From NCBI RefSeq assembly GCF_005795905.1, contig NZ_VAWE01000001.1, forward strand, positions 1,302,001 through 1,366,000: a stretch of 64,000 nucleotides of DNA. Direction: 5' to 3'. Shown in pieces: positions 34,431-52,629 of this stretch. The notes below the pieces were generated by a model, which was not told the origin of the DNA, did not search any database, and saw only the letters and a program-made list of their open reading frames with translations. The DNA is from Streptomyces marianii. Lineage in GTDB: Bacteria > Actinomycetota > Actinomycetes > Streptomycetales > Streptomycetaceae. Within the stretch, counting starts at the first letter, position 1. Every line of letters begins with the position of its first letter. Position numbers and translations under genes: made by a program.

Positions 34431-35132
34431 TCAGTGCGTCTTCACGGCGCCGGTGGCCACTCGTGGAACACGGAGTTCCGCCTCGGCGGTGATGGCCCAG
34501 CGCTCGTGGTCGCGCCAGGCACCGTCGATGAACAGGAAGTCCGGGGAGAAGCCCTCCAGCCGGAAGCCCAGCCGCCGCACCAGGGCGGTGGATGCCCGGT
34601 TGCGAGGCTGGATGTTGGCTTCGAGCCGGTGCAGTCCGAGCGGCCCGAAGGCATGGCGGACGACGAGCCCGAGGCCCTCCGTCATCAGTCCGCGGCCCGC
34701 GGCGTGGGAGAACGCCCCGTAACCGAGAGCGCCGCTGAGGAAGGCGCCCTCGACGATGTTGTTGATGTTGACGAATCCGGCGATCCGGCCGTCCGCTCGA
34801 TCGCAGACGAGGTAGCCGGCCCTGGTCGGGTCCTCGAGGAGCCTGCGGGCGTAGGCGAGGTAGTCGGCCTCCGTCCGGGGCGGGAAGAGCCAGGGCCGGT
34901 GGAGCAGGATGCTCTCCCCGGCGAGCGCCGTGTACTGCGCCGCGTCGTCGAGGCGGTAGTGGCGTATGAACGTCCTCGGGCCGACGGCGAGCGCCTCGGC
35001 GGGGGCGTCGGAGGCAGCGGAACCGCCGGGGACTTCGGAGCCCGAGAGTGCCAGATGGCCTTCCGTGGCCCCGGGGCCGGAGGCGTTGGTGGTGTCGCGT
35101 GGGCCAGGAGGGGGACTTGGTGCCGGGGACAT
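34431..35132 (-). CDS. GNAT N-acetyltransferase, RimJ/RimL type
   Basis: A 233-residue acetyltransferase. After a 50-residue disordered lead (MSPAPSPPPGPRDTTNASGP) the GNAT domain follows: FIRHYRLDDAAQYTAL, ALGYGAFSHAAGRGLMTEGL (acetyl-CoA pyrophosphate loop variant Ala-x-Gly-x-Gly), GLHRLEANIQPRNRASTALV and RRLGFRLEGFSPDFLFIDG, the usual C-terminus of Rim enzymes. It probably acetylates a protein N-terminus or small amine. A -10 box TAGCCT stands 6 nt before the ATG, so it is probably leaderless. The upstream 160-bp inverted-repeat element begins 2 bp beyond that -10 box. Confidence 0.86.
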   Translation of the reverse strand: MSPAPSPPPGPRDTTNASGPGATEGHLALSGSEVPGGSAASDAPAEALAVGPRTFIRHYRLDDAAQYTALAGESILLHRPWLFPPRTEADYLAYARRLLEDPTRAGYLVCDRADGRIAGFVNINNIVEGAFLSGALGYGAFSHAAGRGLMTEGLGLVVRHAFGPLGLHRLEANIQPRNRASTALVRRLGFRLEGFSPDFLFIDGAWRDHERWAITAEAELRVPRVATGAVKTH

Positions 35133-35671: not shown

Positions 35672-37147
35672 TCAGTGGTGACTGAGCACCGGCCGGGGCC
35701 GCTCTTCGGACCGCTCGCCCCGCTCCCCCACCGCGTCCGCCGGTTCCGGGCGCCGGATCAGCAGGGCGGTGACCACGCCGACGGCGAGGAGGGCGAGTGC
35801 GGCGAGCATGGCGTTGCGGTAGCCCGCCTCCGTGACCCCGTTCGCGTCGCTCCCCGCGGTGATCATGGCGGAGGCGAGGGCGATGCCGAGCGAGGCCCCG
35901 ACCCCGAAGCAGGCACCGTTGAGGCCGGAGAGGGAGCCGGGCTTGTCCTTGGGAGCGGTGGTGACGGCGAGTCCGTTGAGGCCGGTGAGCATGAAACCGC
36001 CGTACGTCACCCCGAGCGCGGCCAGCGCGGCGACCAGGAACCACTCGTTGTGCAGGAAGAGGGTGGCGAAGACGAAGATCGTGAAGTTGGCGATCGCGCC
36101 GGTGACGACGACCCTCCGCCAGCCGAGCCTCGGACCGATGCGGCCGGTCAGCGGGGCGGAGACGACACCGATCAGCTGGATCGGAGTGAGGAAGAGCACG
36201 GCGGCGGTGACCGCCGACAGCCCGAGGCCGACCCCGGGGTCCTGGGCGAAGAGCGGGATGGTCAGGGCGATCGCGCCGAAGGCACCTCCCAGCGTGCAGA
36301 TCGTGGTGATCAGCAGCGGCCAGGCGCGGCGGGAGGCCAGGACCTCGATGTCGATCACCGGGTCGGCGGCGGACTTCTGCGAGACGACGAAGAAGACGAG
36401 AGAGGCGACACCGCCGAGCAGGAAGCCGAGGGTGAGCGGCGAGTTCCAGCCCCAGGCGCTGCCCTGGGCGAGGCCGACGAGCACGCCGGTGAGGCCGAGG
36501 GAGAGGGCCGCGATGCCGCGCGAGTCGAAGCTGCCGCCGGTGCTCGCGGGCGGAGCCTCGGGGACGTAGCGGCGGACGCCGAGCAGGCCCGCGACGGCGA
36601 TCAGCGCGGAGCAGACGAAGATGCCGCGGAACCCGATGGTGTCGGCGATCTGGCCGCCGGCAATGGCGTCGACGCCCGCGAGGCCGCCGTTGACGGCGGT
36701 GATGATGCCGGCCGCCTTGCCGAAGCCGGCAGGGCTGAGCACCTGGTTCAGGGTGAGGAACGCGAGGGTGAACATGGCGGCCGAGACGCCCTGCAGGATC
36801 CTTCCCGCGATGAAGACCTCGATGTTCGGAGCGAGGACGCAGAGCACATCGCCGACGATCAGCACGATCGCGCAGAGGATCATCATCGGCTTGCGGCCCC
36901 GGCGGTCGCTGAGACGCGCCAGGGTGACCTGCCCGATCGCGGCCATCAGGAAGAACAGCGTCTGGGAGAGGCCCGCGGCAGCCGTCGTGGTGCCGAGGCG
37001 CTCGATGACGTCCGGGAGGGCGGGACTCAGCATCGTGGCGTTGATCTGGTAGCCGAGCACGGCCAGCACCATGGCCGCCAGCATGGCGCGGCGACCCGCC
37101 AGGTCGGAGTCGGACCCGGATCGCGTCCGGCCGGGCGTGGATGACAT
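35672..37147 (-). CDS. MFS drug-efflux-type transporter
   Basis: A 491-residue major facilitator with 14 predicted segments (DHA2-like). Motif A appears as LARLSDRRGRKPMMILCAIV, motif B-like as AGRILQGVSAAMFTLAF, and motif C-like as GFGKAAGIITAVNGGLAGVD. The start MSSTPGRTRS at 37147 was chosen over the upstream ATG, because the operator at 37235-37247 would otherwise lie inside the coding frame. It is divergent from the GntR gene and has the clearest copy of the shared operator, so it is probably the main target of that repressor. Substrate unknown; the linked adenosine deaminase suggests nucleosides or nucleoside antibiotics (inference). Confidence 0.87.
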   Translation of the reverse strand: MSSTPGRTRSGSDSDLAGRRAMLAAMVLAVLGYQINATMLSPALPDVIERLGTTTAAAGLSQTLFFLMAAIGQVTLARLSDRRGRKPMMILCAIVLIVGDVLCVLAPNIEVFIAGRILQGVSAAMFTLAFLTLNQVLSPAGFGKAAGIITAVNGGLAGVDAIAGGQIADTIGFRGIFVCSALIAVAGLLGVRRYVPEAPPASTGGSFDSRGIAALSLGLTGVLVGLAQGSAWGWNSPLTLGFLLGGVASLVFFVVSQKSAADPVIDIEVLASRRAWPLLITTICTLGGAFGAIALTIPLFAQDPGVGLGLSAVTAAVLFLTPIQLIGVVSAPLTGRIGPRLGWRRVVVTGAIANFTIFVFATLFLHNEWFLVAALAALGVTYGGFMLTGLNGLAVTTAPKDKPGSLSGLNGACFGVGASLGIALASAMITAGSDANGVTEAGYRNAMLAALALLAVGVVTALLIRRPEPADAVGERGERSEERPRPVLSHH

Positions 37148-37234
37148 GTCGGCCCCTTCGCCTTGGATGTCGGTGTCGAGATCCACCGATGCGTTCGTCG
37201 ATACGACGGCAGCCCAGACAGGGCCTTGCCAGAG

Positions 37235-37247
37235 CTTGTCTGACAAG
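37235..37247. promoter_or_regulatory. GntR/FadR-type operator upstream of the MFS gene
   Basis: CTTGTCTGACAAG matches the GntR/FadR consensus TNGTNNNACNA perfectly. The same 11-base core TTGTCTGACAA recurs at the adenosine deaminase start (38435-38445), and a right half-site at the GntR gene (37444-37450). Confidence 0.75.
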
Positions 37248-37435
37248 TGCCGCCTAAACAGACTGGAATCTACGGGCGTAGAACGTCAAGACCCTCTGGC
37301 TGTGAATTACGGTGGTCGGCAGCATGCGGGATGTGCCGGGACCCTGGCACACCAGGCGAAACACGGGCCGGTCCGGCGACATCCGCCAGCGGCCCCGTCA
37401 TGGCCCCGGGCCGCGACGGGACGAGCGGCCCGGAT

Positions 37436-37450
37436 TTGCAGCCTGACAAG
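37436..37450. promoter_or_regulatory. partial GntR operator before the GntR gene
   Basis: TTGCAGCCTGACAAG keeps the right half TGACAAG of the operator, 18 bp before the GTG at 37468. The left half is degenerate, so autoregulation is possible but weaker. Confidence 0.5.
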
Positions 37451-37467
37451 TGAGCCGAGGAGGGGCC

Positions 37468-38220
37468 GTGGCAGTCAGCGGAGAGCGCCGGAGGCCGGTC
37501 GTCGTCCTGTACGAGCGGATCGCGGACGCCATCCACGAGGGAACCTATCCGCCGGGATGCACCCTGCCCTCCGAGCCGCGGCTGGCCGCCGAGCTCGGCG
37601 TGAGCCGGCCCGCCCTGCGCGAGGCCCTCCTGCTCCTTCAGGAGGACGGACTGCTGACGGTACGGCGCGGAGTGGGCAGGACGGTCAACGACAGCCCGCC
37701 GCGCCGGGGCTTCGAGCACGTCCGGCCGCTGGAGGAACAGCTCTCGGCGGGTACGTCGCCCCTGCGGGTGAGAGCGCTGCTGCGCACGGTCGAGGAACCG
37801 ACCGACTTCACCACCCAGCACCTGCTCGCCCCCGCCCGGGCCGAGCTGCGGTTCTGGGAGTCGCTGCTGTCGGGCGAGGGCAGCGCGGCGGCGCTCAGCC
37901 AGGAGTGGGCGGCGGCCGACGACGTGCTGGAGCGGGCGCATCCGGCATTCGCCCGGGCCTTGGGGGAGGCGGGGGACGACGTCGGAACGTCGATGCTCGC
38001 GGTGCTGACCGGGGCCTCCCGGGGAGTGACGCTGACCGCGCACTCGGGCATCACGGCGACGCTCCTCGGCCGGCGCCGGGGGGCCCAGCTGAACCGCCCG
38101 GCCGACACCCCCGCCGTGCTGGTGACCCAGGTCGTACGGTCCGCCGACGTCCCGGTCCTGGCCGCCAAGCACATGCTGCCGACGGGCGCCCCGGCGCTCC
38201 CCGTCCTCCAGTCGAACTGA
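37468..38220 (+). CDS. GntR-family regulator with UTRA (HutC-like) domain
   Basis: A 250-residue repressor. The winged helix is clear: [40 protein letters not shown] and [20 protein letters not shown] (residues 10-70). The rest is a UTRA ligand domain, including [20 protein letters not shown] and the C-terminal LPVLQSN. GTG at 37468 is preceded by GAGGAGG; an earlier GTG at 37450 overlaps the half-operator and is less likely. It is divergent from an MFS pump and upstream of an adenosine deaminase, both with the same operator. The effector may be a purine nucleoside or an antibiotic exported by the pump (inference). Confidence 0.87.
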
Positions 38221-38414
38221 CGGCGGCCGGCCGGCGACCGCCGCTCCCTGCTTCCCGCGCCGGCCACGACCCGCGAGCCCGCACCGCAGCCGGACGCCCC
38301 CGCCCCGGGCGGCGAACGCGGGACCCGGACGACCCGCGAACCCGCACCGCACTCGGGCGCCCCCGACCCGGACGGCGAACGCGGGGGCCGGACGCATCCG
38401 GTCGCGGCGTGGCG

Positions 38415-38420
38415 TACACT
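38415..38420 (+). promoter_or_regulatory. -10 box TACACT of a leaderless adenosine deaminase
   Basis: TACACT ends 8 nt before the ATG at 38429, so transcription should start at or within a base or two of it. The operator copy then lies from about +5 onward, inside the first codons. Confidence 0.55.
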
Positions 38421-38428
38421 CCCGCTGC

Positions 38429-39541
38429 ATGCACTTGTCTGACAACTCCGCCGCAGAGTCGCCCGCCGCCCCCGCCCCCGTCGCCGGCTGGATCCGCCGC
38501 GCGCCGAAGGCCGTTCTCCACGACCATCTGGACGGCGGTCTGCGCCCCGCCACGATCATCGAGCTGGCCGGGGAGTGCGGCTACGGCGATCTTCCTACCG
38601 ACGACCCCGACGCGCTCGCCGTCTGGTTCCGCGACGCCGCGGACTCGGGTTCGCTGGAGCGCTACCTCGAGACCTTCGCCCACACCTGCGCGGTGATGCA
38701 GACCCGCGACGCCCTCTTCCGGGTCGCTGCGGAGTGCGCCGAGGACCTGGCCGCGGACGGCGTCGTGTACGCCGAGGTGCGCTACGCGCCCGAGCAGCAC
38801 CAGGTACGCGGGCTGAGCCTCGACGAGGTCGTGGACGCCGTCAACGAGGGTCTCCGTGAGGGCGAGCGGCGGGCGGGCGGCCGTATCACCGTCCGGGCCC
38901 TCCTCACCGGCATGCGGCACACTCGGCGCTCGCTGGAGATAGCCGAGCTGACGGTCGCCCACCGGGACCGCGGTGTCGCCGGTTTCGACATAGCGGGCGG
39001 CGAGATCGGCAATCCGCCCGCGAACCACCTGGCCGCGTTCCAGCACCTGAAGCGGCACAACTGCCACTTCACCATCCACGCCGGCGAGGCCGTCGGCGCG
39101 GAGTCCATCCACGAGGCGGTCCAGGTCTGCGGTGCCGAGCGCATCGGCCACGGTGTGCGGATCACCGACGACATCCAGCTCCACGACGACGGCACGGCGA
39201 CACTCGGCCATCTCGCCGCCTACATCCGCGACAACCGCATCGCGCTGGAGGTCTGCCCGACGTCGAATCTGCAGACCGGTGCCGCGAAGGACTACGCGAC
39301 GCATCCGATCGACCTGCTGCGCCGTCTGGGCTTCCGGGTGACGCTCAACACCGACAACCGTCTCGTCTCCGGCACCACCATGAGCCGCGAGTTCCAGCAC
39401 ATGGCCGACGCGTTCGGCTACGGTCCCGAGGTCTTCGAGCGGTTCACCGTCGCGGCCGTCGAGTCCGCCTTCCTGCCCCTCCCGGAGCGCCGCCGCATCA
39501 TCGACGAGGTGATCCGGCCGGGTTACTCGGCGCTCGGCTGA
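38429..39541 (+). CDS. add: adenosine deaminase
   Basis: Converts adenosine and deoxyadenosine to inosines; cytosolic zinc TIM barrel. All metal and catalytic blocks are visible: zinc ligands His31 and His33 in [22 protein letters not shown] (third His and catalytic Glu), ERIGHGVRI and [13 protein letters not shown] (the Asp-Asp pair region). Length 370 aa is normal. Start ATG 38429 stands behind a -10 box with no leader. The first 25 residues ([20 protein letters not shown]) are a non-family extension that arises because the operator is inside the frame. It shares its operator with the GntR and MFS genes. Confidence 0.92.
38434..38446. promoter_or_regulatory. GntR operator inside the first codons of adenosine deaminase
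   Basis: The 11-base core TTGTCTGACAA at 38435-38445 is identical to the MFS operator and overlaps codons 3-6. A repressor bound here would block transcription just after initiation. Confidence 0.7.
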
Positions 39542-39674: not shown

Positions 39675-40634
39675 TCAACTCAGCGCCGGCACCTCCAGCG
39701 TCAGTGTCCCCGCGTCGGCGTCGAGTAGCGCCGGCAGCCCGAGGGGCACGGTGAGGTTGCCCGGGCCGTGCCCGAAGCCCAGTTCCTCGACGACCGGTAC
39801 ACCGAGTCCGGACAGCCGGTCCAGCAGGAGCGCCCGGACCTCCTCGTAGGGTCCGCAGTCCTCCCAGGAGCCGAGAACGACACCCGCCACTCCGTCCAGC
39901 CAGCCGGAGCGCAGCAGCTGTGTGAGGATCCGGTCCAGGCGGTACGTCTCCTCCCCCACGTCCTCGATCAGCAGCAGGCCGCCGCGTGCCGAGGGCCGTG
40001 CGTGCGGGGTACCGAGGTCGGCGGCGAGCATGCTGACGCAGCCGCCGAGGGTGATGCCGCCCGCGCGTCCCGGGACGAGCGCAGCCCCGCCCGGGCCGAG
40101 GGACATCACCGACTCGGGTTCGAACAGCGTGGCGCGCAGCGACTCCTGGCCGGCGGTGTCCTTGAGGAAGTTCGCCGTGGCCGGCATGGGACCGTGCAGG
40201 GTGGACAGCCCGGCGCGGACAGCGAAGGCCTCGTGGAGCGCGGTCACGTCGCTGTATCCGACGAAGGCCTTCGGCCCGGCCGCGCGTATCGCGGCCCAGT
40301 CGACGAGGTCCACCATGCGCTGTGCGCCGTAGCCGCCGCGGGCGCAGATCACGGCGGAGACTGCCGGATCGCACCATGCCTGCTCCAGGTCCCGGGCACG
40401 GTCCTCGTCACGGCCCGCGAGATACCCGAGATCCCGGCTCTCGTCGAGGACATGGGGCATGACGACCGGGTCCAGGCCCCAGCCGCGCAGGATGTCCAGG
40501 CCCGTTTCGAGGGTGTCGGCAGGGACGGGACCGCTCGTGGCGACGACGGCGACCCTGGCCCCGGGGGTGAGCCGAGGTGGCCGGGTGAGGGCGGTCGGAC
40601 CCGCCGCGCCGGAGTGCCGGTGCATGACGTTCAC
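39675..40634 (-). CDS. ldcA: LD-carboxypeptidase (S66, murein tetrapeptide type)
   Basis: A serine carboxypeptidase of family S66 that removes D-Ala from murein-type tetrapeptides, or in the MccF branch cleaves acyl-adenylates. The triad is complete: Ser128 in GYSDVTALHEA, Glu224 in LLLIEDVGEET and His289 in LGFGHGPGNL. The ARGGYGAQRM loop matches true LdcA enzymes. Length 319 aa is usual. The GTG start overlaps the stop of the S9 peptidase gene by 4 bp. It closes a four-gene operon of peptidases, which points to recycling of cell-wall peptides or of D-amino-acid peptides. The symbol names the family, not a proven ortholog. Confidence 0.85.
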   Translation of the reverse strand: MNVMHRHSGAAGPTALTRPPRLTPGARVAVVATSGPVPADTLETGLDILRGWGLDPVVMPHVLDESRDLGYLAGRDEDRARDLEQAWCDPAVSAVICARGGYGAQRMVDLVDWAAIRAAGPKAFVGYSDVTALHEAFAVRAGLSTLHGPMPATANFLKDTAGQESLRATLFEPESVMSLGPGGAALVPGRAGGITLGGCVSMLAADLGTPHARPSARGGLLLIEDVGEETYRLDRILTQLLRSGWLDGVAGVVLGSWEDCGPYEEVRALLLDRLSGLGVPVVEELGFGHGPGNLTVPLGLPALLDADAGTLTLEVPALS

Positions 40635-42631
40635 TTCCTCAGCTCGAGCGGGGGGACGTCGGTGCGCCGGATGCCGAAGGTCTGGGCGTACAGCGAGAGT
40701 TCGGCCTCCAGAGCACGGATCATGGTCTCCGCCCGGCGGAAGCCGTGGCCCTCTCCCTCGAAGGCGATGTACGCGTGCGGTATGCCGCGTCCCGCCATCT
40801 GGGCGAGGAAACGCTCGCTCTGGACGGGCGGGCAGATCGGGTCGTCCAGCCCCTGCAGCAGCAGGAAGGGCACGGAGATCCGGTCGACGTGCTCGATCGG
40901 CGACCGCTCCCGATAGCGGCCGGGCACCTCGGTGAGCGGACCGACCAGTGACTCCAGGTACTGCGACTCGAAGTCGTGGGTCTCGTCGGTGGCCCAGCCC
41001 ATCAGGTCAAGGATGGGATAGATGATCGTGCCGCAGGCGTACACGTCCGTGCCGGTGAGCGATGCCGCGGTGGTCCAGCCTCCGGCGCTGCCGCCGCGGA
41101 TGGCGAGCCGGTCCGGGTCGGCGGTGCCCTCCGAGGCGAGGGCCTCGGCGACCGCCGCGCAGTCCTCCACGTCGACGACGCCCCACTGCTCGCGCAGCCG
41201 GTTGCGGTACTCGCGGCCGTATCCGGTGGAGCCGCCGTAGTTGACCTCGGCGACGCCGATGCCGCGCGAGGTGAAGTAGGCGATCTCCAGGTCGAGGACG
41301 AGCGGCGCGTGTCCGGTCGGTCCGCCGTGCGCCCAGATCACGAACGGGGGCAGTTCGTCGTCGGGGGCGACCCGGTCCGGGTTGTGGGGCGGGTAGATGT
41401 GTGCGTGGATCTCGCGGTTGTCCGGACCGGTGAAGGTACGGATCTGGGGTTCGGGGTAGTACGCGGGGTCCACGGCGTCGGCGTGCGCCGCGCCGATGAC
41501 ACGGGTCCGCCCGGTACGGGTGTCGAGCTCTACGACCTCGTAGCCGGTGCGGGGGCTGGCCGCCACGCCGACGACCCTGGTGCCGTGCGCCGCGAGAGTC
41601 GGGGCCCACTCCGTCCAGGGCCCCGCCGCGTCGACCAGTTCGCCGGTCTCCGGGTCGAGAATCCCGAGAGCCGTGGACCCCTTGCCGTGGATGACCGCGA
41701 TCAGTCCGCTGTCGAGCGGCTGGAACCACTGCAGGCCGATCTTCCACAGCGGACCGCCGAACTCCTCGTTCCGGCCCTCGCACAGTCCGGTCGCGGTGGG
41801 CTCGGCACCGGCGAGGGCGTCCGGCCGGATACGGCGCAGCTCCCACCAGTTACCCGGGTCGGACACGAGCAGCAGCGAACCGTCCGGGGCCCAGTCGACC
41901 TGGGCGACCGACTCGTCGGGGCCGCCGGCGACGCAGCGCACCGCGGTGAACGGTCCCGTACGGGAGACCTCGCCGACCATGGCCTCGGTGCCGTCCCACG
42001 GCATGCGCGGATGGTCCCAGGCGATCCACGCCACCCGGCTCCCGTCCGGGGAGAGCCGGGGGCCGGTCACGAACCGGTGCCGGTCGTCGGTCAGTTCCCG
42101 CACGACCGCACGGTCCTCCGCCGCGGAACCGTCCAGCGGCACGGCCGCGACGACGCGCCGCACGTCGGTGGGGGCGTCGCCGGTGAACTCCTCCAGCACA
42201 CACCAGACCTCGCCCCGGTCCAGCAGCACCACCGGGTCGACCCAGCGCAGTCCGCCTCCGGCCCCGGACACCGGGGTGAGCGGCCGCGGGTCACCTACGC
42301 CGTCCGGTTCGAACACATACAGCCGCTGATCGGGGTGGTGGACGAAGACGACGAGCGGGCCGTCCCCGGGCCGGGCGGCGGCAGCCCATGGCCGGCCGCC
42401 GTACTCGATGACCCGGCTGCGCACGTTCCAGGGGGCGGGCAGGACGGACTCCTCGGCGCCGCCCGCTCTCCGGCGCATCAGTGCCCGGCGCCCGCCCTCG
42501 GCGGGGCGCGGCGCGGTCCACCACACCTCCTCCCCGACGACGCCGGCGAAATCAGGACGGCCGTCGTGCGAGGCCGCGAGCGCGGCGTCGATCGGCGACG
42601 GCCAGGTGCCGTAGGCCCCCGTGGGTACCAT
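40631..42631 (-). CDS. S9 prolyl oligopeptidase-family serine peptidase
   Basis: A 666-residue peptidase of the S9C/acylaminoacyl-peptidase branch. An N-terminal seven-blade beta-propeller (about residues 60-390) is followed by an alpha/beta-hydrolase: Ser in IRGGSAGGWTT, Asp in LQGLDDPICPP, His in FEGEGHGFRR. WAHGGPTGHAPLVLD is the oxyanion-hole segment. It cleaves short peptides in the cytosol. It overlaps ldcA by 4 bp and starts 11 bp after the M20 peptidase stop, so it sits in the same operon. Confidence 0.9.
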   Translation of the reverse strand: MVPTGAYGTWPSPIDAALAASHDGRPDFAGVVGEEVWWTAPRPAEGGRRALMRRRAGGAEESVLPAPWNVRSRVIEYGGRPWAAAARPGDGPLVVFVHHPDQRLYVFEPDGVGDPRPLTPVSGAGGGLRWVDPVVLLDRGEVWCVLEEFTGDAPTDVRRVVAAVPLDGSAAEDRAVVRELTDDRHRFVTGPRLSPDGSRVAWIAWDHPRMPWDGTEAMVGEVSRTGPFTAVRCVAGGPDESVAQVDWAPDGSLLLVSDPGNWWELRRIRPDALAGAEPTATGLCEGRNEEFGGPLWKIGLQWFQPLDSGLIAVIHGKGSTALGILDPETGELVDAAGPWTEWAPTLAAHGTRVVGVAASPRTGYEVVELDTRTGRTRVIGAAHADAVDPAYYPEPQIRTFTGPDNREIHAHIYPPHNPDRVAPDDELPPFVIWAHGGPTGHAPLVLDLEIAYFTSRGIGVAEVNYGGSTGYGREYRNRLREQWGVVDVEDCAAVAEALASEGTADPDRLAIRGGSAGGWTTAASLTGTDVYACGTIIYPILDLMGWATDETHDFESQYLESLVGPLTEVPGRYRERSPIEHVDRISVPFLLLQGLDDPICPPVQSERFLAQMAGRGIPHAYIAFEGEGHGFRRAETMIRALEAELSLYAQTFGIRRTDVPPLELRK

Positions 42632-42642
42632 GCCAACCCCCC

Positions 42643-44058
42643 TTATGCGGACTTCAGATAGTGGTCGAGGACGCGGACGCCGAAGTGCAGGGCTTCGACG
42701 GGGACCCGCTCGTCGACTCCGTGGAACATCGCCGCGTAGTCGTAGCCCTCGGGCAGCTTCAGCGGTGAGAAGCCGTAGCCGGTGATGCCGAGGCGCGAGA
42801 ACTGCTTGGCGTCGGTGCCGCCGGACATGCAGAACGGGACGACGTGCCCCTCGGGATCGAAGCGCTCGATCGCCGCGCGCAGCTTGGCGAAGGTCGGGGA
42901 TTCGACGGGCGCCTGCAGTGCGACCTCCCGGTGGTGGAACTCCCAGTCGACGTCAGGTCCGGTGAGCCGGTCGAGTGTCTCCCGGAATTCCTCCTCGCCG
43001 CCGGGCACCATCCGCCCGTCGACGAAGGCACGTGCGTGGCCGGGGATCACGTTGACCTTGTAACCGGCGTCCAGCATCGTCGGGTTGCTGCTGTTGCGCA
43101 CGACCGGTTCGACCAGCGCGGCGGCGCGGCCGAGCTTGGCCATCAGGGCGTCCACGTCGAAGTCCGGCGCGTCGAGGTCGGCGGTGATGCCCTGCAGGGC
43201 CGCCAGCTCCGACAGGGCCGCGCGCACGGTCGGGGTGAGCCTGACCGGCCACTCGTACACACCGATCCTGCCGATCGCCGCGGCCAGCCGCGTGACGGCG
43301 TTGGAGCGGTTGACCTTGGAGCCGTGACCCGCCCTGCCGTGGGCGGTGAGCTGCAGCCAGGCGGTGCCGCGCTCACCGGCGCCGACGGGGTACAGCACCG
43401 TTCCTGGGCCGGCGTGGAAGGTGAACGCGCCGGATTCGCTGATGCCTTCCGTGCAGCCCTCGAAGAGTTCGGCGTGCTGGTCGGCGAGGAAGCCCGCCCC
43501 GTCCTCCGCGCTGGCCTCCTCGTCGGCCGTGTAGGCGATGACGATGTCCCGGCGCGGCCGGATGCCCGCGCGGTGCCAGGCCCGCACGACGGACAGGACC
43601 ATCGCGTCCATGTTCTTCATGTCGACCGCGCCGCGCCCCCAGACGACGCCGTCGCGGACCTCGCCGGAGAACGGGTGGACGGCCCAGTCGGCCGGCTCGG
43701 CCGGGACCACGTCGAGATGCCCGTGGACGAGGAGGGCGTCGGCGGAGGGGTCGGTGCCCTCGATCCTGGCGACCACGTTCGTACGGCCGGGAGTGCGCTC
43801 CAGCATGACGGGCTCGAGGCCGGCGGCTGCGAGCCGCTCCGCCACGTACTCTGCGGCGGGGCGCTCACGGCAGTCGCCGCCGCCGAGGTTGGTGGTGTCG
43901 ATGTGGATGAGCTCGGACGTGAAGCTCACCACCTCGTCGAGGGCGGTGTCGTCGACGGGTGAGGCCTTTGTCATGTCGTGGGACCTGTCCCTGTACGGCG
44001 TGTCGGATGGTGCGGTGGGCTCGGTGGTCCGGGTGGGGCTGCGGGTCACGTCAGCCAT
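42643..44058 (-). CDS. M20 family zinc peptidase (dipeptidase/deacetylase type)
   Basis: A 471-residue peptidase of the M20/ArgE-dipeptidase type. Metal and catalytic residues: LLVHGHLDVVP (His/Asp), VVWGRGAVDMKNMD and YTADEEASAED (Asp-Glu-Glu), with HGRAGHGSK in the dimerisation lid and MSGGTDAKQF near the end. The ATG at 44058 overlaps the last 8 bp of the M55 gene, with GGAGGAG five bases upstream; the family part starts at about residue 29 (MTKASPVDD), so a start at 43974 is possible. Part of the four-peptidase operon; it may remove the last amino acid from dipeptides released by its neighbours. Confidence 0.9.
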   Translation of the reverse strand: MADVTRSPTRTTEPTAPSDTPYRDRSHDMTKASPVDDTALDEVVSFTSELIHIDTTNLGGGDCRERPAAEYVAERLAAAGLEPVMLERTPGRTNVVARIEGTDPSADALLVHGHLDVVPAEPADWAVHPFSGEVRDGVVWGRGAVDMKNMDAMVLSVVRAWHRAGIRPRRDIVIAYTADEEASAEDGAGFLADQHAELFEGCTEGISESGAFTFHAGPGTVLYPVGAGERGTAWLQLTAHGRAGHGSKVNRSNAVTRLAAAIGRIGVYEWPVRLTPTVRAALSELAALQGITADLDAPDFDVDALMAKLGRAAALVEPVVRNSSNPTMLDAGYKVNVIPGHARAFVDGRMVPGGEEEFRETLDRLTGPDVDWEFHHREVALQAPVESPTFAKLRAAIERFDPEGHVVPFCMSGGTDAKQFSRLGITGYGFSPLKLPEGYDYAAMFHGVDERVPVEALHFGVRVLDHYLKSA

Positions 44059-44884
44059 ACTGCTCCTCCACCGCGGCGGAGACGATCGTCGTGACGGCCT
44101 TGAACGTGCGAATGGCCTCATACATGGTCTCGCTGGTGTAGACGGTGCGGCGCTCACCGCTGCGGGCCGTCCCCGGCACGACGGTGGCGGCCGCGGCGAG
44201 GTGCTCCGCGTCGAACTCCAGCTCCACGGTGAACGGTCCGCCCCGGACCGGCTCGTGGCGGACGGCGAGGGCCGTGGCCTCCTTGGCGGCGGCGCGGATG
44301 TCCGCGGCCGTGCGCGCGGGCGTGCGGCACACCGCCGCGTACCGCGAGACATGGTCCTTGACCGCGACCTTCCGGGCCTCCGGCGCAAATCCCAGGGCGT
44401 CCTCACAGGTGAGGTCGTCGCCGGTGACGAGGATCACCGGGACCCCGTACTCCGCGACCACGTGCGCGTTGAGCAGGCCCTCGCTCGCCCGGGTGCCGTT
44501 CAGCCACACGCCTGTGATCGAATTCGCCAGATAGGTGTGCGCGAGCACGCCCTCGGCACCGGCGCCCGTGTGATAGCCGACGAAGGCGACACCGTCCACG
44601 TCGCCGTGCTGCACGCCTTCCACCATGGACAGCGGCTTGTGGCGTCCTGTCAGCATTTCGGCACGGTCGTCCAGGCGCTCCAGCAGAAGGTTCCGCATGC
44701 TCCAGTGCGCTTCGTTGATGAGCACCTCATCGGCACCGCCGTCGAGGAAGCCGAGCACCGCCGCGTTCACGTCCGAGGTGAAGAGGGACCGGCAGCGCTC
44801 CCACTGGGGCGTGCCCGGCAGCACGTCGGCCGGCCACGTAACACCGGTGGCGCCCTCCATGTCGGCACTGATCAGGATCTTCAT
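44051..44884 (-). CDS. M55 D-aminopeptidase (DppA-like)
   Basis: A 277-residue zinc aminopeptidase. In the classic member, Bacillus DppA, it releases D-Ala and other D-residues from peptides. The family start is intact, MKILISADMEGATGVTWPAD with Asp8 and Glu10 as metal ligands, then DVNAAVLGFLDGGADEVLIN and EAHWSMRNL (His), and GYHTGAG with another His ligand. It is first in the operon M55-M20-S9-S66. Read together, the four enzymes could strip D- and L-residues from murein-derived or non-ribosomal peptides. No oligopeptide transporter is adjacent. D-preference is known for the family and not visible here. Confidence 0.9.
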   Translation of the reverse strand: MKILISADMEGATGVTWPADVLPGTPQWERCRSLFTSDVNAAVLGFLDGGADEVLINEAHWSMRNLLLERLDDRAEMLTGRHKPLSMVEGVQHGDVDGVAFVGYHTGAGAEGVLAHTYLANSITGVWLNGTRASEGLLNAHVVAEYGVPVILVTGDDLTCEDALGFAPEARKVAVKDHVSRYAAVCRTPARTAADIRAAAKEATALAVRHEPVRGGPFTVELEFDAEHLAAAATVVPGTARSGERRTVYTSETMYEAIRTFKAVTTIVSAAVEEQYG

Positions 44885-45042
44885 GCCAGGAACCGTACGC
44901 GCCGCCTGCCGCGTCGACCACCCCTGTGGATAACTCCCGATGGTTCAGGCCGATGAAGTCACTCGTTCCGGCCTCCGACCAGCCCCTTCACCGTCTGCAC
45001 GGGCGCCTCGGGCCGCCTCGCAGCGCCTTCCCGGGAGGGCGT

Positions 45043-45765
45043 TCACCCGGCGCCGCCGGGTACGAAGGACCGGCACCTGGGCACGCCCCGTTCAGGCGTC
45101 GCCGGCATCCGGTCGGCGCGGTCGAACTCGATGACGGGACAGCCCAGTTCCCGTACCCGGCCGACGATCCCGCCGGGATCCCGGACTCCCGTGCCGGGCA
45201 GGACCGCGGCGAGCCGGCGGAGCAGTTCGCCGGAGTCGGGGAGTTCGGCGTGCAGGGCGAACCCGGGCGCGACGCGTCCCCCGCCGGGCGCGTCGCCGGA
45301 ACCGAACCGCCCGGCATCCGCTGCCAGGACGAGGAGCCGCTCCGGTCCCGGGTCCGGGAGCGGGTACGCCCACCACAGCACGTCGATCCGCTCCTCCCGA
45401 GGCCGGCCTCCGCCCGCACCGAGCCGGGCGCGCCCCGCCACCGGATAGAAGACGGGCGTCCCGGACGGGGCCCCCGGTCCGGCGCGGCGGCCGCCGCGGC
45501 CCCACGACCGGGACGGCAGGGATACCGAAGCCCCCGGGGACGACGAGGACAGCGCGGCGTCGGCCGCCGTCAGGGCGCCGCTGACGGGCAGCAGGTCCGC
45601 GGCGGGCCGGCCGACGGCCGTCTCCTCGTCGTGGCCGAACAGCGCCCGCGCGCCCGCGGACCAGTGCGAGACACGGCCGGCGCCGTCGACGAGGACCACG
45701 GCCAGGCCGGCCGGGCCGACCGCCGCCGACCGCCGCCGCAGGACCGGCGGAACGCCACCGTCCAT
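45043..45765 (-). pseudogene. N-terminal remnant of a PAS-SpoIIE phosphatase
   Basis: A 240-codon frame begins MDGGVPPVLRRRS with AAGGAG upstream. Residues about 14-65 are a PAS domain with AVGPAGLAVVLVDGAGRVSH then WSAGARALFGHDEETAVGRP. The remaining part, including LLVLAADAGRFGSGDA and SGELLRRLAAVLPGTG, matches the linker of large actinobacterial PAS-GAF-PP2C proteins, but the protein stops where the GAF and phosphatase domains should follow. I saw no PP2C motif in the 160 bp before the next gene. It may be expressed as a short PAS protein, or be dead. Confidence 0.6.
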
Positions 45766-46373
45766 GACTGACAGGCTCCTTCCCGGACGCGGGATCCACG
45801 ACAAGTGACTCAACAGTAGGCCCCCGCGAGCACGGCCCGCCGGTCATCGCGCGAATCGGCCGGGGACCCGCGCACCACGAGCCGGGACAGCGCGATCCGC
45901 GCCTCTGCCCGACCCGGTCCCACCGCGTCCGCACCGGGCCCGAACCTCCGGCGTTTCCGAACCTCCGAACGATCCCGGGGCTTCGAACGATCCCGGAACT
46001 CCGCCGTTTCCGGATGTCCGGGCGGTTCTGGTTGTCCGGGCGGTTCCGGAAGTCCGGGCGTTTCCGGGCCTCCTGGGCCGTGCGCCGCCTCCGGCCCCGG
46101 ACCCGAGTGGTCGGCACGCGAAGCCCTTCGAGGGGCGACGCAGGAGTCCGCGTCGGGCCGCGTCGGGAACATCCGGTTCCCGACGTTCCGGAGGACGCCC
46201 CGGCGCCGGCTGCCACGTCGGCCGCGTTCCGGCCACCCGTGGCCCACCGGAGCAGGATCCCGAAGCGCTCTCCGTGCCCACCGCTCCCGCGAACCGGGAG
46301 GAACCCCCGGCACATCCGTGATACTAATACCGGTATAAGAATTGGGTAGCTCGGACGGCAGGGAGTCGCACAC
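45766..46373. other. 600-bp intergenic with imperfect repeats and the map promoter
   Basis: No gene is supported. 45950-46075 holds imperfect 17-21-bp repeats around TTCCGGAAGTCCGGGCG on both strands. The last 60 bp carry the methionine aminopeptidase promoter with the palindrome described separately. Confidence 0.5.
46327..46336. promoter_or_regulatory. palindrome ATACCGGTAT upstream of map
   Basis: A perfect 10-base palindrome in an AT-rich patch (CTAATACCGGTATAAGAATT), 38 bp before the ATG. It overlaps TATAAG, a good -10, so it may be an operator for a regulator that is not in the window. Confidence 0.5.
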
Positions 46374-47259: not shown

Positions 47260-49680
47260 TCAGGAGTGCGGGTCCTCGTGCCCCAGTTGGAGTTCTCGCT
47301 CCGTGCGTCCCCCGGCCGCGACCTGCAGCACCGTCGCCACGGGCGGATAGCCCGCGGCGATGACGGTGTACTCGCCGGACGACAGATCGACGAAGCGGAA
47401 GCTCCCCTCGGGACCCGTGGTGAGCGTGTCGACCACGTTTCCCGCCGCGTCGAGCAGGGTCACCCGCGCGTCCTCCACGGGCCGCCCGCCGCCCGCGCGC
47501 ACCGTGCCGCGCAGGACCGCGCCGCCGGCGAGTTCGATGTCCTGGCGGGTCTCCCGGGACGCCTGGACGCTCACGGGCAGTGCGGCCGGGCGGAAGGCCG
47601 GTGCACTCGCCGCGAGGGTGTACTCCCCCGCCACCAGGTCGCCGATCACATAGCCGCCCTCCCGGCCGCTGCGGGTGGACGCGACGACCTCGCCGCGCAC
47701 ATCGGTCAGCGTCACCGCCGCGTCGCGCACGGGGCTTCCGTCCGCGGTGACCACACTTCCGGCGAGCCGTCCGGCGCCGCCGAGGACGACATCCAGGTCG
47801 ACCGGCCGCTCGCCGACGGTGACGGACACGGCCTGCGGCTGGTGCCCGCCGGCCGCGGCGATGAGGACGTACGAGCCGGGTCCGGGGACGCTGAGGGCGT
47901 ACCGTCCGCCCTCGCCGCTCGCCCCGCGTCCGATCTGCTGCCCCCGGACGTCGATGAGGGTGAGCGCGGCGCGGGGCACCGTGCTGCCGTCGAGGTGCCG
48001 AACCGTGCCGCAGACGGGCACTCCCGCGCCGGGGGCCGCCGGCGCGGGTGCCGGGGCGGCGGGCGCCGTGCGGGCGTGCGGCACGGACATGGGTTCGGCG
48101 GCCGTGGGGGCGTTGTGGGTCACCAACGGTTTCTCCTTGAGGAAGAAGGCGAGGATCAGACCGAGGACGAGCACCGGCACGAGGTAGAGGAAGATCCGCG
48201 GCATCGCGTCCGCGTACGCCTGGACGTAGCCGTCCCTCAGGGCGGGCGGCATCGCGTGCACGAGCTGCGGTGTGATGGCCTGCACCTCGGGCATGCCCTC
48301 GGGGGGCGTGGGGATGCGGCCGGCAAGGGCGTCGGCGAGCCGGTCGGCTAAGAGGGTGCCGAAGACGGCCGCGCCGACGCTGCCGCCGATCTGGCGGAAG
48401 TAGTTGCTGGCGCTGGTGGCGGTACCGAGGTCGGCGGGCGGTACGGAGTTCTGCACCGCCAGGACCAGCACCGGCAGCACCAGGCCCACACCGACGCCGA
48501 GGACCGCCTGCCAGACCGAGTACGTGAACCGGGAGGTGTCGGTCCCCAGCCCGGACAGCAGCCACATGCCGACGGCCGCGAGGGCGGTACCGGCCACGGG
48601 ATGGGACTTGTAGTGACCGGTGCGGCTGATGAGGTGGCCCGACACGATGGAGGCGACGACGATGCCGCCCATCATGGGCAGCATCAGCAGGCCGGACTCG
48701 GTGGCGCTGGCACCGTCGACCATCTGCAGGAACGTGGGCAGATATCCGGCCGCGCCGAAGAGGGCGACGCCGACCACGGCCCCCACGAGACCGGTGACGT
48801 TGAAGACCGGGTCGCGGAACAGCCGCAGGGGGATGACGGGTTCGGGCGCATGGTGCTCGACGGCGAGGAAGAGCAGGGTCGTTCCGGCGGCGCCCGCGGC
48901 CAGGGCGAGGATGACGCGCGAGTCCCAGGCGTACTCGGTCCCTCCCCAACTGGTCAGCAGGACGAGGCAGGTGGACGCCGCGGCCAGGCACACGGCGCCG
49001 AGGACATCGAAACGGCCCCTCGCCTGCGGCTTGGGAAGCTTCAGCACGACGGCCACCACGACGAGGGTGACGAGGCCGAACGGAACGTTGAAGTAGAAGC
49101 ACCAGCGCCAGGACACGTGATCGGTGAAGAAGCCGCCGAGCAACGGCCCGGCGACCGAGGCGAGCCCGAAGGCGGCGCCGATGAGCCCCATGAACCGGCC
49201 GCGTTCCCTGGCCGGGACGATGTCGGCGATGATCGCCTGGACGCCGATGATCAGCCCGCCGGCGCCGACGCCCTGAACGGCCCGGAAGGCGATGAGCTCG
49301 TCCATCGTCCGGGACCAGCCCGCGAGGGCGGAGCCGGCGACGAACACGACGATGGCGAACTGGAAGACGCCCTTGCGGCCGTAGAGGTCACCGAGTTTTC
49401 CGTAGACCGGCAGTCCGATGGTGGCCGTGAGCAGGTAGGCGGTGATCGCCCAGGACATGCGGTCCAGCCCCTGGAGTTCGCCCACGATCTTCGGCAGCGC
49501 CGTGGCGACGATCATCTGCTCCAGAGCGGCGAGCAGCAGCGCGAGCATCAGACCGAAGAACACGAGCCGGACCCGCCGGGAACTGAGCGCGGCAGCGTCC
49601 CCGGCTCCGGCGGCGGGGGGTGCGGGACGACCGGTCGTCCCGGCGGTCTGCCCGTCCTTCACCAGAGTGGTCCCGCCCAC
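47260..49680 (-). CDS. DHA2-type MFS exporter fused to three carboxypeptidase-regulatory-like repeats
   Basis: An 806-residue protein. Residues about 35-540 are a 14-segment drug exporter: motif A GKLGDLYGRKGVFQFAIVVF, motif C-like GLASVAGPLLGGFFTDH, and ALEQMIVATALPKIVGELQG at the first helix. After an Ala/Pro linker there are three beta-sandwich repeats of about 75-80 residues each, with the recurring pattern VPVCGTVRHLDGSTVPRAAL, RLAGSVVTADGSPVRDAAVT and LRGTVRAGGGRPVEDARVTL. This CarboxypepD_reg-like part would face out or in depending on topology. GTG at 49680 has GAGGGGAG upstream. What the repeats do on a pump is not known. Confidence 0.88.
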   Translation of the reverse strand: MGGTTLVKDGQTAGTTGRPAPPAAGAGDAAALSSRRVRLVFFGLMLALLLAALEQMIVATALPKIVGELQGLDRMSWAITAYLLTATIGLPVYGKLGDLYGRKGVFQFAIVVFVAGSALAGWSRTMDELIAFRAVQGVGAGGLIIGVQAIIADIVPARERGRFMGLIGAAFGLASVAGPLLGGFFTDHVSWRWCFYFNVPFGLVTLVVVAVVLKLPKPQARGRFDVLGAVCLAAASTCLVLLTSWGGTEYAWDSRVILALAAGAAGTTLLFLAVEHHAPEPVIPLRLFRDPVFNVTGLVGAVVGVALFGAAGYLPTFLQMVDGASATESGLLMLPMMGGIVVASIVSGHLISRTGHYKSHPVAGTALAAVGMWLLSGLGTDTSRFTYSVWQAVLGVGVGLVLPVLVLAVQNSVPPADLGTATSASNYFRQIGGSVGAAVFGTLLADRLADALAGRIPTPPEGMPEVQAITPQLVHAMPPALRDGYVQAYADAMPRIFLYLVPVLVLGLILAFFLKEKPLVTHNAPTAAEPMSVPHARTAPAAPAPAPAAPGAGVPVCGTVRHLDGSTVPRAALTLIDVRGQQIGRGASGEGGRYALSVPGPGSYVLIAAAGGHQPQAVSVTVGERPVDLDVVLGGAGRLAGSVVTADGSPVRDAAVTLTDVRGEVVASTRSGREGGYVIGDLVAGEYTLAASAPAFRPAALPVSVQASRETRQDIELAGGAVLRGTVRAGGGRPVEDARVTLLDAAGNVVDTLTTGPEGSFRFVDLSSGEYTVIAAGYPPVATVLQVAAGGRTERELQLGHEDPHS

Positions 49681-50059
49681 GTACTGCTCCCCTCGTCGCG
49701 GCTGCGCGGCGTCATTCTTCGCATTACACGCCAAGACGGATCAAGCGGGAAGCTTGCGGCGAGGAGGGGGCGCAGGGTGGGCGGGCGGGGACCCCGGGGG
49801 CGCACAACAGTCGCCCATCAGGCGCTTTTCTGCGCACCTGGTGCGCCGCGGGTTCCACGGAAGCACGGGGAAAACCACTCGAAACGGTGACCCTTACGGG
49901 GGTGCGGCGGAGAGGAGTTCACCTCCGGACCAGGTGAAGGACCGTCCGGATGCGCTCCCATGGAGGGAGAGGCTCCGCCTCGAGCGCGAGGCCACCCTTC
50001 ACCCGGGAGGATCACCGCCCGAGAGGATCAGCGCTCAAGCCGATCGGTGATCGAGATGC
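49681..50059. other. intergenic between the MFS and SRPBCC genes
   Basis: These 379 bp lie between two minus-strand genes. No gene or clear promoter motif was recognised. Confidence 0.4.
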
Positions 50060-50503: not shown

Positions 50504-50783
50504 CGCTTCTCCTTCAGTGCTCGTTCCCGGCAGTGCCACCAAGCCAACCACCTCCGCCCCGGCCGCCCAAATTCGGGGTTGCGACGATCAAGGTTCTATT
50601 CCATGGTCAGCGCTACCCGGAGGCGCCCCTGCGCTGGGTCAATCTCGCCGAGAGCGGCCTGAACGCCGCGGACCCCGACGGTCCTGGCATTCCAGCATCC
50701 TTACTGCCGACTTGCCGGCCCCGCAGGGTAGGCCGCCGGCGAGGTGTCCGCTGATGCAGACCCTTTTCCGACGGCCCCCCACC

Positions 50784-50818
50784 GAACCGGGCATGCGACT
50801 TATCGCCGCACCCGGCTC
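50784..50818 (-). ncRNA. group II intron domain V
   Basis: A 34-35-nt hairpin with the catalytic stem GAGCCGGGTGCG / CGCATGCCCGGTTC. The reverse transcriptase stop codon TAA lies in its loop, so the last nine codons of the protein (ESRVRR at the end) are read from domain V itself. Confidence 0.75.
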
Positions 50819-52629
50819 TCCAGCGTCGATTCCATCGAGTCCTGCCGAACGGAGAATCCGCTGTGGATTCCGTTGTGACAGTCACGGCAGACGATCAGGG
50901 TTTTGCGGCGGCGCGATGCCATCTGCTTTGCCCAGTCAGGCTGTTCAGCCTGACTCCCGGAGCGGAGGTCACTCAGGCGCCGAATGTGGTGCACTTCGAC
51001 TTCCGTTCGCGCCGTGCAGAGTTCGCAACGGCCGGACATGAGCCGGTCGATGAGTTCTGCAGGACGCTTCCTCCAAACCGCAGGAAGGTCGTCTTTGAGA
51101 GTCACCCTCGTGGTCCTTCGGGCCAGCGAGACCCCGCCCCAACGGGCGACCAGCGGCTTCTTTCCTTTGCCGCGTTCGACCTTGATCTGTAGACCCCTTC
51201 GGGGTCCAGCAGGTGTCTGCCAGGTGGCACGGTAGCGATTCCAGACCTTGTTGACGCTGATCTTGTTCTTATGTCCCAGCGTCTTGGTCAGGGATCGTTC
51301 CGTGATCCACCTCAGCAGGCCGAGGCGATGCCGGTTGTATGCCAGCTGGTAATACTCCGCGAGGCCCCGGAACTCTGACTGAAACCGCGTGACGATCCGG
51401 AAATCCGAGTCGTGCACGCGCTCCAGCAGAGCGGCCGGTTTTCCGCGGCGCATATAGGGCTTGCATTTTCCGCGCACGACGTCCATTGGCACTTTCAGGC
51501 CGATCTGCCCATTGATAGAGCGATGACCGTTCCGATCGCGCTTGGCATCGTCGTGCAGGACCACGATTTCGTAGCCGAGGAAGCGAGCGGCCTGTGTCCG
51601 CCCGTGGGTAATCAAAGTCTTCGGCTCGGAGAGTTCCAGCTTCAACCGGTTCCGCAGGAACCTCCCGATCTTCTCCTTGATGTACTCGGCCTCCCGTCGC
51701 GTCCCGGAGAACCCCAGCAGCCAATCGTCCGCGTAGCGGACGTAGTGCAGCCGTCGGAAGCCAGGATCGTTTGGATCGTGCGAAGGGAGCTGTTGCAGTT
51801 GGCGGCGCAACTGTCGTGCTTCCTCGCGCTCTCCGCGCTTTTCCAGCTTCCAAGCCGCCTTGTGTATCCGCATGTACGGCAGATACGGCTTGCGGCGGGC
51901 TCCCCGGTTGAAGAGGGGTAAGAGTGTTGTCTCAACGTACTTGTCCAACCGGTTCAGGTAGATATTGGAAAGCAAGGGGCTCAGAACACCCCCTTGTGGC
52001 GCACCACTCAGTGTTTCGTGGTAGCGCCATTCCTCCAGGTATCCGGCCTGAAGAAGTCCGTCGATCAGCTGCAGGAAGCGACTGTCGTGAATGTCCTCGG
52101 CCAGGATGGAGTGCAAGACTCCGTGATCCAGCCGGTCAAAACACTGGGAGATGTCTCCCTCGACGAACCAGGTGACACTACGCCACGTCTCGGAAACTTC
52201 CGTGAGCGCAGTGTGGCACCCCTTTCCCGGCCTGAAGCCGTGAGAGCGGTCAGAGAACTGCGGCTCGTAATACGCTTCCAACAGGGAGCGGATAACTTCT
52301 TGCAGCAGCTTGTCCGACCACGAAGGCAAACCTAGGGGCCGACGCTTCGCGGGAGATCCCTTCTTCTCGATGTATACGCGTCGTACCGGGGTCCATCGAT
52401 ATCGCTCGTAACGCAGCGCATCGATGATCGTCTGAATTTTCTTCAGACTCATGCCGTCCACGGTCTCCTGAGTGGAGCCGGGCGTGATGGAGCCGTCATT
52501 GCGGTAGATCTTCCCGTAGGCCCGCAAGTACAGCTCCGGGTTGAACAAATGCCGATACAGCCTCTCCAGTGGCAATCCTCTCTTGCCGCGTTCATGGATG
52601 ATCTCCATCAGGGCTTCGGCTCTCTGCAT
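50800..52629 (-). CDS. group II intron reverse transcriptase/maturase with HNH endonuclease
   Basis: A 609-residue multifunctional protein that splices and mobilises the intron. Order: N-terminal RT-0 region with LFNPELYLRAYGKIYRNDGS, RT fingers and palm with DISQCFDRLDH, GAPQGGVLSPLLSNIYLNRL and the active site LHYVRYADDWLLGFSG (Asp-Asp intact), maturase domain X after about residue 390, and a C-terminal zinc-HNH nuclease (CELCTARTEVEVHHIRRLSD ... CRDCHNGIHSG). Everything needed for retrohoming is present. ATG at 52629 follows a GGAGAGGCAAGG-type leader. The C-terminus overlaps domain V. Codon use is less GC-rich than the neighbours, a sign of transfer. Confidence 0.93.
   Translation of the reverse strand: MQRAEALMEIIHERGKRGLPLERLYRHLFNPELYLRAYGKIYRNDGSITPGSTQETVDGMSLKKIQTIIDALRYERYRWTPVRRVYIEKKGSPAKRRPLGLPSWSDKLLQEVIRSLLEAYYEPQFSDRSHGFRPGKGCHTALTEVSETWRSVTWFVEGDISQCFDRLDHGVLHSILAEDIHDSRFLQLIDGLLQAGYLEEWRYHETLSGAPQGGVLSPLLSNIYLNRLDKYVETTLLPLFNRGARRKPYLPYMRIHKAAWKLEKRGEREEARQLRRQLQQLPSHDPNDPGFRRLHYVRYADDWLLGFSGTRREAEYIKEKIGRFLRNRLKLELSEPKTLITHGRTQAARFLGYEIVVLHDDAKRDRNGHRSINGQIGLKVPMDVVRGKCKPYMRRGKPAALLERVHDSDFRIVTRFQSEFRGLAEYYQLAYNRHRLGLLRWITERSLTKTLGHKNKISVNKVWNRYRATWQTPAGPRRGLQIKVERGKGKKPLVARWGGVSLARRTTRVTLKDDLPAVWRKRPAELIDRLMSGRCELCTARTEVEVHHIRRLSDLRSGSQAEQPDWAKQMASRRRKTLIVCRDCHNGIHSGFSVRQDSMESTLESRVRR

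Follow-up and report, generated by a model that had tools for sequence, protein, structure and literature searches.

Why do four peptidase genes of different families lie end to end on one strand of a Streptomyces chromosome, and what kind of peptide would their products share? The question is raised by a stretch of 64,000 nucleotides from Streptomyces marianii (NCBI RefSeq assembly GCF_005795905.1, contig NZ_VAWE01000001.1, positions 1,302,001 to 1,366,000 of the forward strand), which is called the window here and to which coordinates refer unless another locus is named. An initial annotation of its block of M55, M20, S9 and S66 peptidase genes had proposed a salvage path for cell-wall peptides or a detoxification path for peptide antibiotics. 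To our knowledge, the uptake of murein peptides and other peptides containing D-amino acids by Gram-positive soil bacteria is poorly known. The four genes form a widely conserved actinobacterial gene block, and we lean towards reading it as a cytosolic, translationally coupled cassette that would salvage short imported peptides, especially those with D-residues. The genes are as follows.

44051..44884, minus strand: M55 D-aminopeptidase-family gene (PF04951), first of the block, 277 amino acids, ATG start
42643..44058, minus strand: M20 metallopeptidase gene of the NCBIfam subfamily PRK07906 (NF005913), with its ATG within the end of M55 (8-base overlap)
40631..42631, minus strand: S9 serine peptidase gene of the PDB 3azo aminopeptidase type, 666 amino acids, 11 bases past M20
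39675..40634, minus strand: S66 LD-carboxypeptidase-family gene, 319 amino acids, GTG start, 4-base overlap with S9

The coordinates, the spacing (overlap of 8 bases, gap of 11, overlap of 4) and the Pfam assignments bear out the earlier description of four peptidase genes that overlap or nearly touch on one strand. The M55/M20 overlap, with the ATG of M20 inside the end of M55, reads ATGGCTGA, and from this layout co-transcription and translational coupling of all four genes are predicted. No signal peptide is visible by eye, which suggests that the enzymes are cytosolic. All four proteins pass the curated Pfam cut-offs (PF04951, 304.8 bits; PF01546, 110.7 bits; PF00326, 169.2 bits), the S66 protein with both of its domains (PF02016, 126.0 bits; PF17676, 100.6 bits). 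The PF04951 match, for which the cut-off is 25 bits, covers positions 1–263 of 264 in the profile, and the M20 protein, scanned over the part encoded by 42643–43974, passes NF005913 with 657 bits against a cut-off of 382. The sole solved relative found for the M55 protein is DppA (1hi9, 127.9 bits). The S9 protein aligns over its full length with 3azo_A (1058.5 bits, residues 1–664 on 1–660), which we take to be the puromycin hydrolase of Streptomyces morookaensis, and in sequence it resembles an aminopeptidase type. For the S66 protein the best solved relative is PA5198 (1zl0, LdcA type) at 121.7 bits, with MccF entries reaching at most 77.4 bits; an MccF-type immunity role was rejected because of these lower scores.

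The claim that the catalytic residues are intact also held, as the putative sites are near-invariant across homologues of the block-bearing groups, in sets that include a few paralogues. In M55 the putative metal and catalytic residues D8, E10, H60, H105 and H116 are kept in 83/83 homologues and E135 in 82/83, the zinc-ligand and catalytic histidine positions being those that we take from the DppA structure 1hi9. Eight putative metal and catalytic residues of M20 are unchanged in 81/81 sequences, the putative S9 triad Ser515, Asp597 and His629 in all 64 sequences that cover these sites (66 in the set), and the putative S66 triad Ser128, Glu224 and His289 in 68/68.

Is the arrangement peculiar to this strain? 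The window genes were mapped on 120 stretches around M55 matches, and later on five more, drawn from the window's own genus group (f1) and from two further families (f17 and f15, the latter including the genus g30). The genes of the relatives were called with an open reading frame (ORF) caller based on GC by codon position, so that some starts are wrong; few candidates were scored per genome, and all counts rest on related genomes. The M55 fragments of G188 and G006 were left out of the fetched loci, and the M55 match of G228, which has a full f15 block, is in two pieces. Of 393 genomes sampled from the class, 117 have M55, as do 43/44 of the same genus. All four genes occur in 31 of these 43 f1 genomes, S66 not being downstream in 11 and S9 missing in one, and in 15 of the 19 f17 genomes with M55; the remaining f17 cases comprise two that reach contig ends (L011, L048), one without S9 and one with an M55 fragment only. 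Within f15, all 13 g30 genomes carry M55-M20-S66 without S9, in a gene order that resembles that of Nocardiopsis sp. CNR-923; outside g30 all four genes are found in 9/25 genomes and only a distant M55 in 16.

M55 and M20 overlap by exactly 8 bases in 36/39 f1 and 15/17 f17 cases, and the 4-base S9/S66 overlap recurs in 26/29 f1, 9/15 f17 and 6/8 f15 cases. The genes that flank the block differ from family to family: the f17 block is preceded by genes which, from their sequence starts, we take to be tsf, pyrH, frr, cdsA and rlmN, and M55 has a MarR-type gene directly before it in 10 loci; many f15 loci have a methionyl aminopeptidase-type gene ahead of M55. Because the same order recurs in two further families, with different flanks and partly shared short overlaps, the block is more than a chance arrangement, and it has been kept together well beyond this strain, the point on which the initial annotation had staked its proposal. 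In all four enzyme trees f1 and f17 are clean splits, as is g30 in every tree that holds it, and f15 outside g30 is a clean split in two of the four. Since the trees hold f1 and f17 apart, the block has largely descended within each family as its surroundings changed, and transfer between families was set aside. No description of the four-gene block was found by title or abstract start in the open-access literature, subscription journals lying mostly outside the search, and the passages retrieved from a sigma-E regulon paper (PMC6767563) name no matching gene.

In relatives the block keeps company with an OppABCDF-type ABC importer, for which Pfam gives SBP_bac_5, BPD_transp_1 and ABC_tran on the copy at L108, a locus described below. 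A scan of named genomes with the M55 alignment gave 578 confirmed matches, the best 80 of which, nearly all Pseudonocardiaceae by genus name and one Nocardiopsis, were inspected. The importer lies divergently beside M55 in 64 of these 80 loci; M20 is present in 66, S66 in at least 33, and S9 with S66 upstream in at least 14, in 12 of them beyond the transporter, the S66 and S9 counts being lower bounds because the flank was only 10 kb. Five f15 genomes (G104, G159, G185, G334 and G382) hold the full block less than 10 kb from the importer, and in f17 the distance from M55 is 12.0–23.2 kb in all 15 genomes that have both on one contig. Among the 87 genomes that have block-type M55, OppB is found at E≤1e-90 in 62, and among the 306 that do not, in 29; outside the genus the counts are 43/44 and 29/305. 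The Fisher values for these counts take no account of phylogeny. These 87 genomes are those with M55 at ≥50% identity, including some that lack part of the block (among them G007, G191, G227 and G340, the 13 of g30 and 12 of f1), with G271 and G188 left out.

A connection with D-residues emerges from paralogous operons. G086, a genome of the same genus, holds a second operon (L108, 7212–19997) with all genes on one strand in the order M20, substrate-binding protein, OppB, OppC, OppD, OppF, GNAT-like protein, N-succinylamino acid racemase (NSAR)-like protein, M55, second M20 and S66. The racemase-like protein belongs to the enolase superfamily; its nearest relative is the N-acylamino acid racemase 1sja (298.2 bits), and its top NCBIfam label, above the cut-off, is o-succinylbenzoate synthase (TIGR01928), these two being a known double activity of the same family. 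The GNAT-like protein reached no Pfam or NCBIfam family and is presumably an acyltransferase of this kind, assigned by eye. At locus L138, in another family, OppB, OppC and a fused ATPase are found together with S9, S66, an M20 gene (M20b) on the opposite strand, GNAT and NSAR racemase. Sixteen more racemase loci outside G086 were found at 55–60% identity, with GNAT and M20b adjoining the racemase in all 14 that were fetched. In the NSAR route a D-amino acid is N-succinylated, racemized and, as the L-form, desuccinylated; Sakai et al. in 2006 reportedly described such a pathway from D- to L-amino acids in Geobacillus kaustophilus. Passages of PMC7431475 likewise describe NSAR together with an L-succinylase in that organism. 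We regard L108 as a candidate complete operon for D-peptide import and D-to-L conversion.

These observations of gene content, order, conservation, residues and linkage suggest a scheme in which the substrates and the direction of flux are predictions. Short peptides would be brought in by an Opp-type importer, one particular OppABCDF-type system perhaps having fed the cassette ancestrally or in sister lineages. S66 would take off a C-terminal D-residue that follows an L-centre, S9 would remove N-terminal L-residues and M55 N-terminal D-residues, and M20 would cut the leftover dipeptides or serve as a carboxypeptidase. Candidate substrates are fragments of murein stem peptides, D-Ala-D-Ala and pieces of non-ribosomal peptides. 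In some lineages the freed D-amino acids could be turned into L-amino acids by the acyltransferase, the N-acylamino acid racemase and an M20 deacylase; in the window genome, where the importer lies apart and no racemase set was found, they would therefore be reused or excreted. Genomic context supports a connection with D-residue peptides, namely the importer beside M55 in relatives and the NSAR-like racemase and acyltransferase in the paralogous operon, and the earlier salvage proposal is to that extent supported. Its murein-specific part fared less well, as the cluster has neither the dipeptide epimerase nor the NlpC/P60 endopeptidase of the Bacillus ykf operon, and murein is a plausible, likely but unproven source of the peptides.

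Several results weigh against salvage of D-residue peptides by this block. Both equivalog cut-offs are missed, that for DppA by M55 (NF058634, 175.8 versus 430 bits) and that for muramoyltetrapeptide carboxypeptidase by S66 (NF008424, 128.8 versus 378 bits), and therefore family membership is claimed here, not equivalence. The assignment of substrate rests on context, as the tools used here identify none. The block itself is not uniform: besides the 11 of 43 same-genus genomes without S66 downstream and the 13 of 13 g30 genomes without S9, the 8-base M55/M20 overlap is seen in only 2/20 f15 cases. The importer reaches E≤1e-90 in only 19 of 44 same-genus genomes, in G086 only within its L108 operon; in the nine others that carry it and the block on a single contig, the two are 0.62–1.70 Mb apart (1.0 Mb in G246). 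In the window genome the distance is 0.84 Mb, and the genes beside the importer gave no match to the block peptidases. The same genome gave no NSAR match at E≤1e-60 and no match at E≤1e-3 to the GNAT of the racemase set, the latter in a search without a positive control; since neither was found, the link to D-amino acids shows the capacity of the operon family, not that of the window copy.

What else might the four enzymes do? They could be a housekeeping cluster of broad-specificity enzymes that recycles ordinary L-peptides from turnover or uptake and has no special role for D-residues. S9 and M20 are broad families, the importer class is generic for oligopeptides, the methionyl aminopeptidase-type gene that many f15 loci carry just ahead of M55 suits general peptide turnover, and so does the absence from the block of S9 in g30 and of S66 in part of f1 just described. 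The NSAR-like racemase beside M55 and S66 in L108 is hard to explain with L-peptides, and characterized members of the M55 and S66 families act at D-residues, so that we judge this account unlikely, if the most serious of the competitors. Detoxification, the other half of the earlier proposal, would mean that the targets are peptide or peptidyl-nucleoside antibiotics (puromycin-like, microcin C-like or with D-residues), inactivated by the enzymes and with the products acetylated by a nearby GNAT. The closeness of S9 to 3azo, the puromycin hydrolase, is what remains of it, together with the MccF immunity proteins that the S66 family also holds and the RimJ-type GNAT found after S66 in some loci of the genus. 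Genes for resistance or biosynthesis were not seen to accompany the block regularly, though, the GNAT association is irregular, S66 scores higher against the LdcA type than against MccF, and the near-universal presence of M55 in the genus suits core metabolism; detoxification is possible but weaker than salvage, and we consider it quite improbable.

A narrower alternative, to which we give still less credence, is a strict cell-wall recycling operon, the equivalent of Bacillus dpp-ykf, for stem peptides of the cell's own murein. The combination of M55, S66 and a peptide importer does parallel the arrangement of ykfA-D beside dppB-E in B. subtilis, as given in passages of PMC2954226; against it, the window-genome protein of the enolase superfamily, identified by one model, is located elsewhere and scores below every listed cut-off. 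Salvage of imported peptides, especially those with D-residues, is the reading that we retain.

How might such a cassette be controlled? Two elements precede M55.

44925..44933, minus strand: DnaA-box-like TTATCCACA; its first base is 49 bases ahead of the M55 start and 36 bases (start to start) ahead of the −10-like element
44892..44897, minus strand: TACGGT, a −10-like element whose position would fit a leaderless M55 transcript

Nine-mers of the TTATCCACA type are putative DnaA boxes. TTATCCACA or TTGTCCACA starts at −48 to −51 before M55 in 8 of 42 fetched f1 loci, and either stands reversed at −37 or −39 in 2/21 f15 loci and in 0/18 f17 loci. The 81 loci together (1,555,290 bases) contain 12 such nine-mers, 10 of them within the 150 bases before M55, where 0.09 would be expected. 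A hexamer TA[ACG][CG]GT occupies the −10-like position in 25 of 42 f1 upstream regions (0.08 expected). With the window included, the box is present in 9 of 42 f1 upstream regions, always 36–37 bases (start to start) before the hexamer, and absent from the other 33; none of the best 80 named loci has a DnaA-box-like nine-mer before M55. The full architecture of box and −10-like element precedes M55 in 18 of 121 genomes of the genus, the control pattern in none, and the window genome as a whole holds 57 such nine-mers against 11 of a reversed control. Genomes with the box turn up in different parts of the genus tree, and the six parsimony changes fit an ancestral element lost several times. A DnaA-box-like element at a fixed place in the putative M55 promoter is, as a sequence feature, a new observation. 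An RNA element before M55 was also considered and rejected, as the only Rfam match in the window at gathering thresholds is a group II intron (50723–50820).

Taken furthest, the block could be the central part of a system for D-peptide assimilation that is so far undescribed in actinobacteria, in which Streptomyces has the importer unlinked and a DnaA-box promoter by which salvage follows hyphal replication and growth state; we put this forward as speculation that is more likely wrong than right by some way. If true, the D-peptide system would combine its own importer with the four peptidases, some lineages adding D-to-L conversion by acyltransferase, racemase and deacylase, and the promoter element, if functional, would tie peptide salvage to replication control. 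What had been a loose guess becomes a testable system of four genes, one importer and, in some species, a D-to-L set, and it offers a possible physiological context for aminopeptidases of the puromycin-hydrolase type.

The neighborhood of the block includes one further gene that bears on its extent.

34431..35132, minus strand: GNAT acetyltransferase, with all NCBIfam matches below cut-off

A GNAT gene is the immediate downstream neighbor of S66 in 11 f1 loci and of S9 in two, and was rejected as a fixed fifth member on these counts. In the window it is separated from S66 by a nucleoside-use module (35672–39541) of an adenosine deaminase (+), a GntR regulator (+) and an MFS protein (−), the last with the uridine transporter UriT as its best model, at a score under the cut-off. 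As operon partners these three were rejected, being partly on the other strand; only 4 of the 44 f1 loci L078–L121 (L093, L106, L114 and L121) have them on the downstream side of S66, and we interpret the module as an insertion specific to the lineage. Adjoining the block on its upstream side, a PAS-domain ORF (45043–45813, −) may be a shortened relative of an 810-amino-acid protein at a similar place in L091, the starts being alike by eye. An MFS transporter with CarboxypepD_reg-like repeats (47260–49734, −) has homologues upstream of the block in several same-genus loci. Further away, a group II intron (50723–52629, −) with a reverse transcriptase/maturase/HNH ORF at 50800–52629 and the Rfam Intron_gpII match at 50723–50820 sits in a stretch of lower GC. 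Another type of M55, 35–40% identical, lies beside a FAD amine oxidase-type gene in 14 f15 loci (L002, L004, L010, L012, L018 and L020 among them) and is a second conserved M55 setting; Pfam was run on the L020 copy of the amine oxidase-type gene only, and the paired Ser/Thr kinase-like genes there were read by eye.

How, then, does the block compare with known systems? The microcin C immunity peptidase MccF shares with the window S66 its family and catalytic triad, the window protein being closer to LdcA-type PA5198, and no microcin gene was noticed among the neighbors scanned. The puromycin hydrolase 3azo, a full-length and very close homologue of the third gene, is known as a single enzyme, whereas the window S9 is one of four adjacent genes. 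The nearest relatives as systems are two. In the dppABCDE-ykfABCD cluster of B. subtilis, dppA, which we take to be an M55 gene, is joined by the S66 peptidase YkfA, the Dpp importer, the epimerase YkfB and the NlpC/P60 peptidase YkfC. Passages of PMC2954226 place ykfA-D next to the dppB-E transporter operon and have YkfA, an LD-carboxypeptidase, remove the terminal D-Ala. The window block resembles this cluster in uniting M55 and S66 and in its proposed use of D-residue peptides, and relatives add the peptide ABC importer, which in the window genome lies outside the cluster. It differs in having M20 and S9 in place of the epimerase and the NlpC/P60 peptidase; no dipeptide epimerase or NlpC/P60 γ-D-Glu-diamino acid endopeptidase was found among the block and flanking genes scanned. 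The NSAR pathway of G. kaustophilus is matched by L108 and L138, which join an NSAR-like racemase, GNAT and M20, neither racemase nor GNAT having been found in the window genome, to the importer and S66; to this set L108 adds M55 and L138 adds S9.

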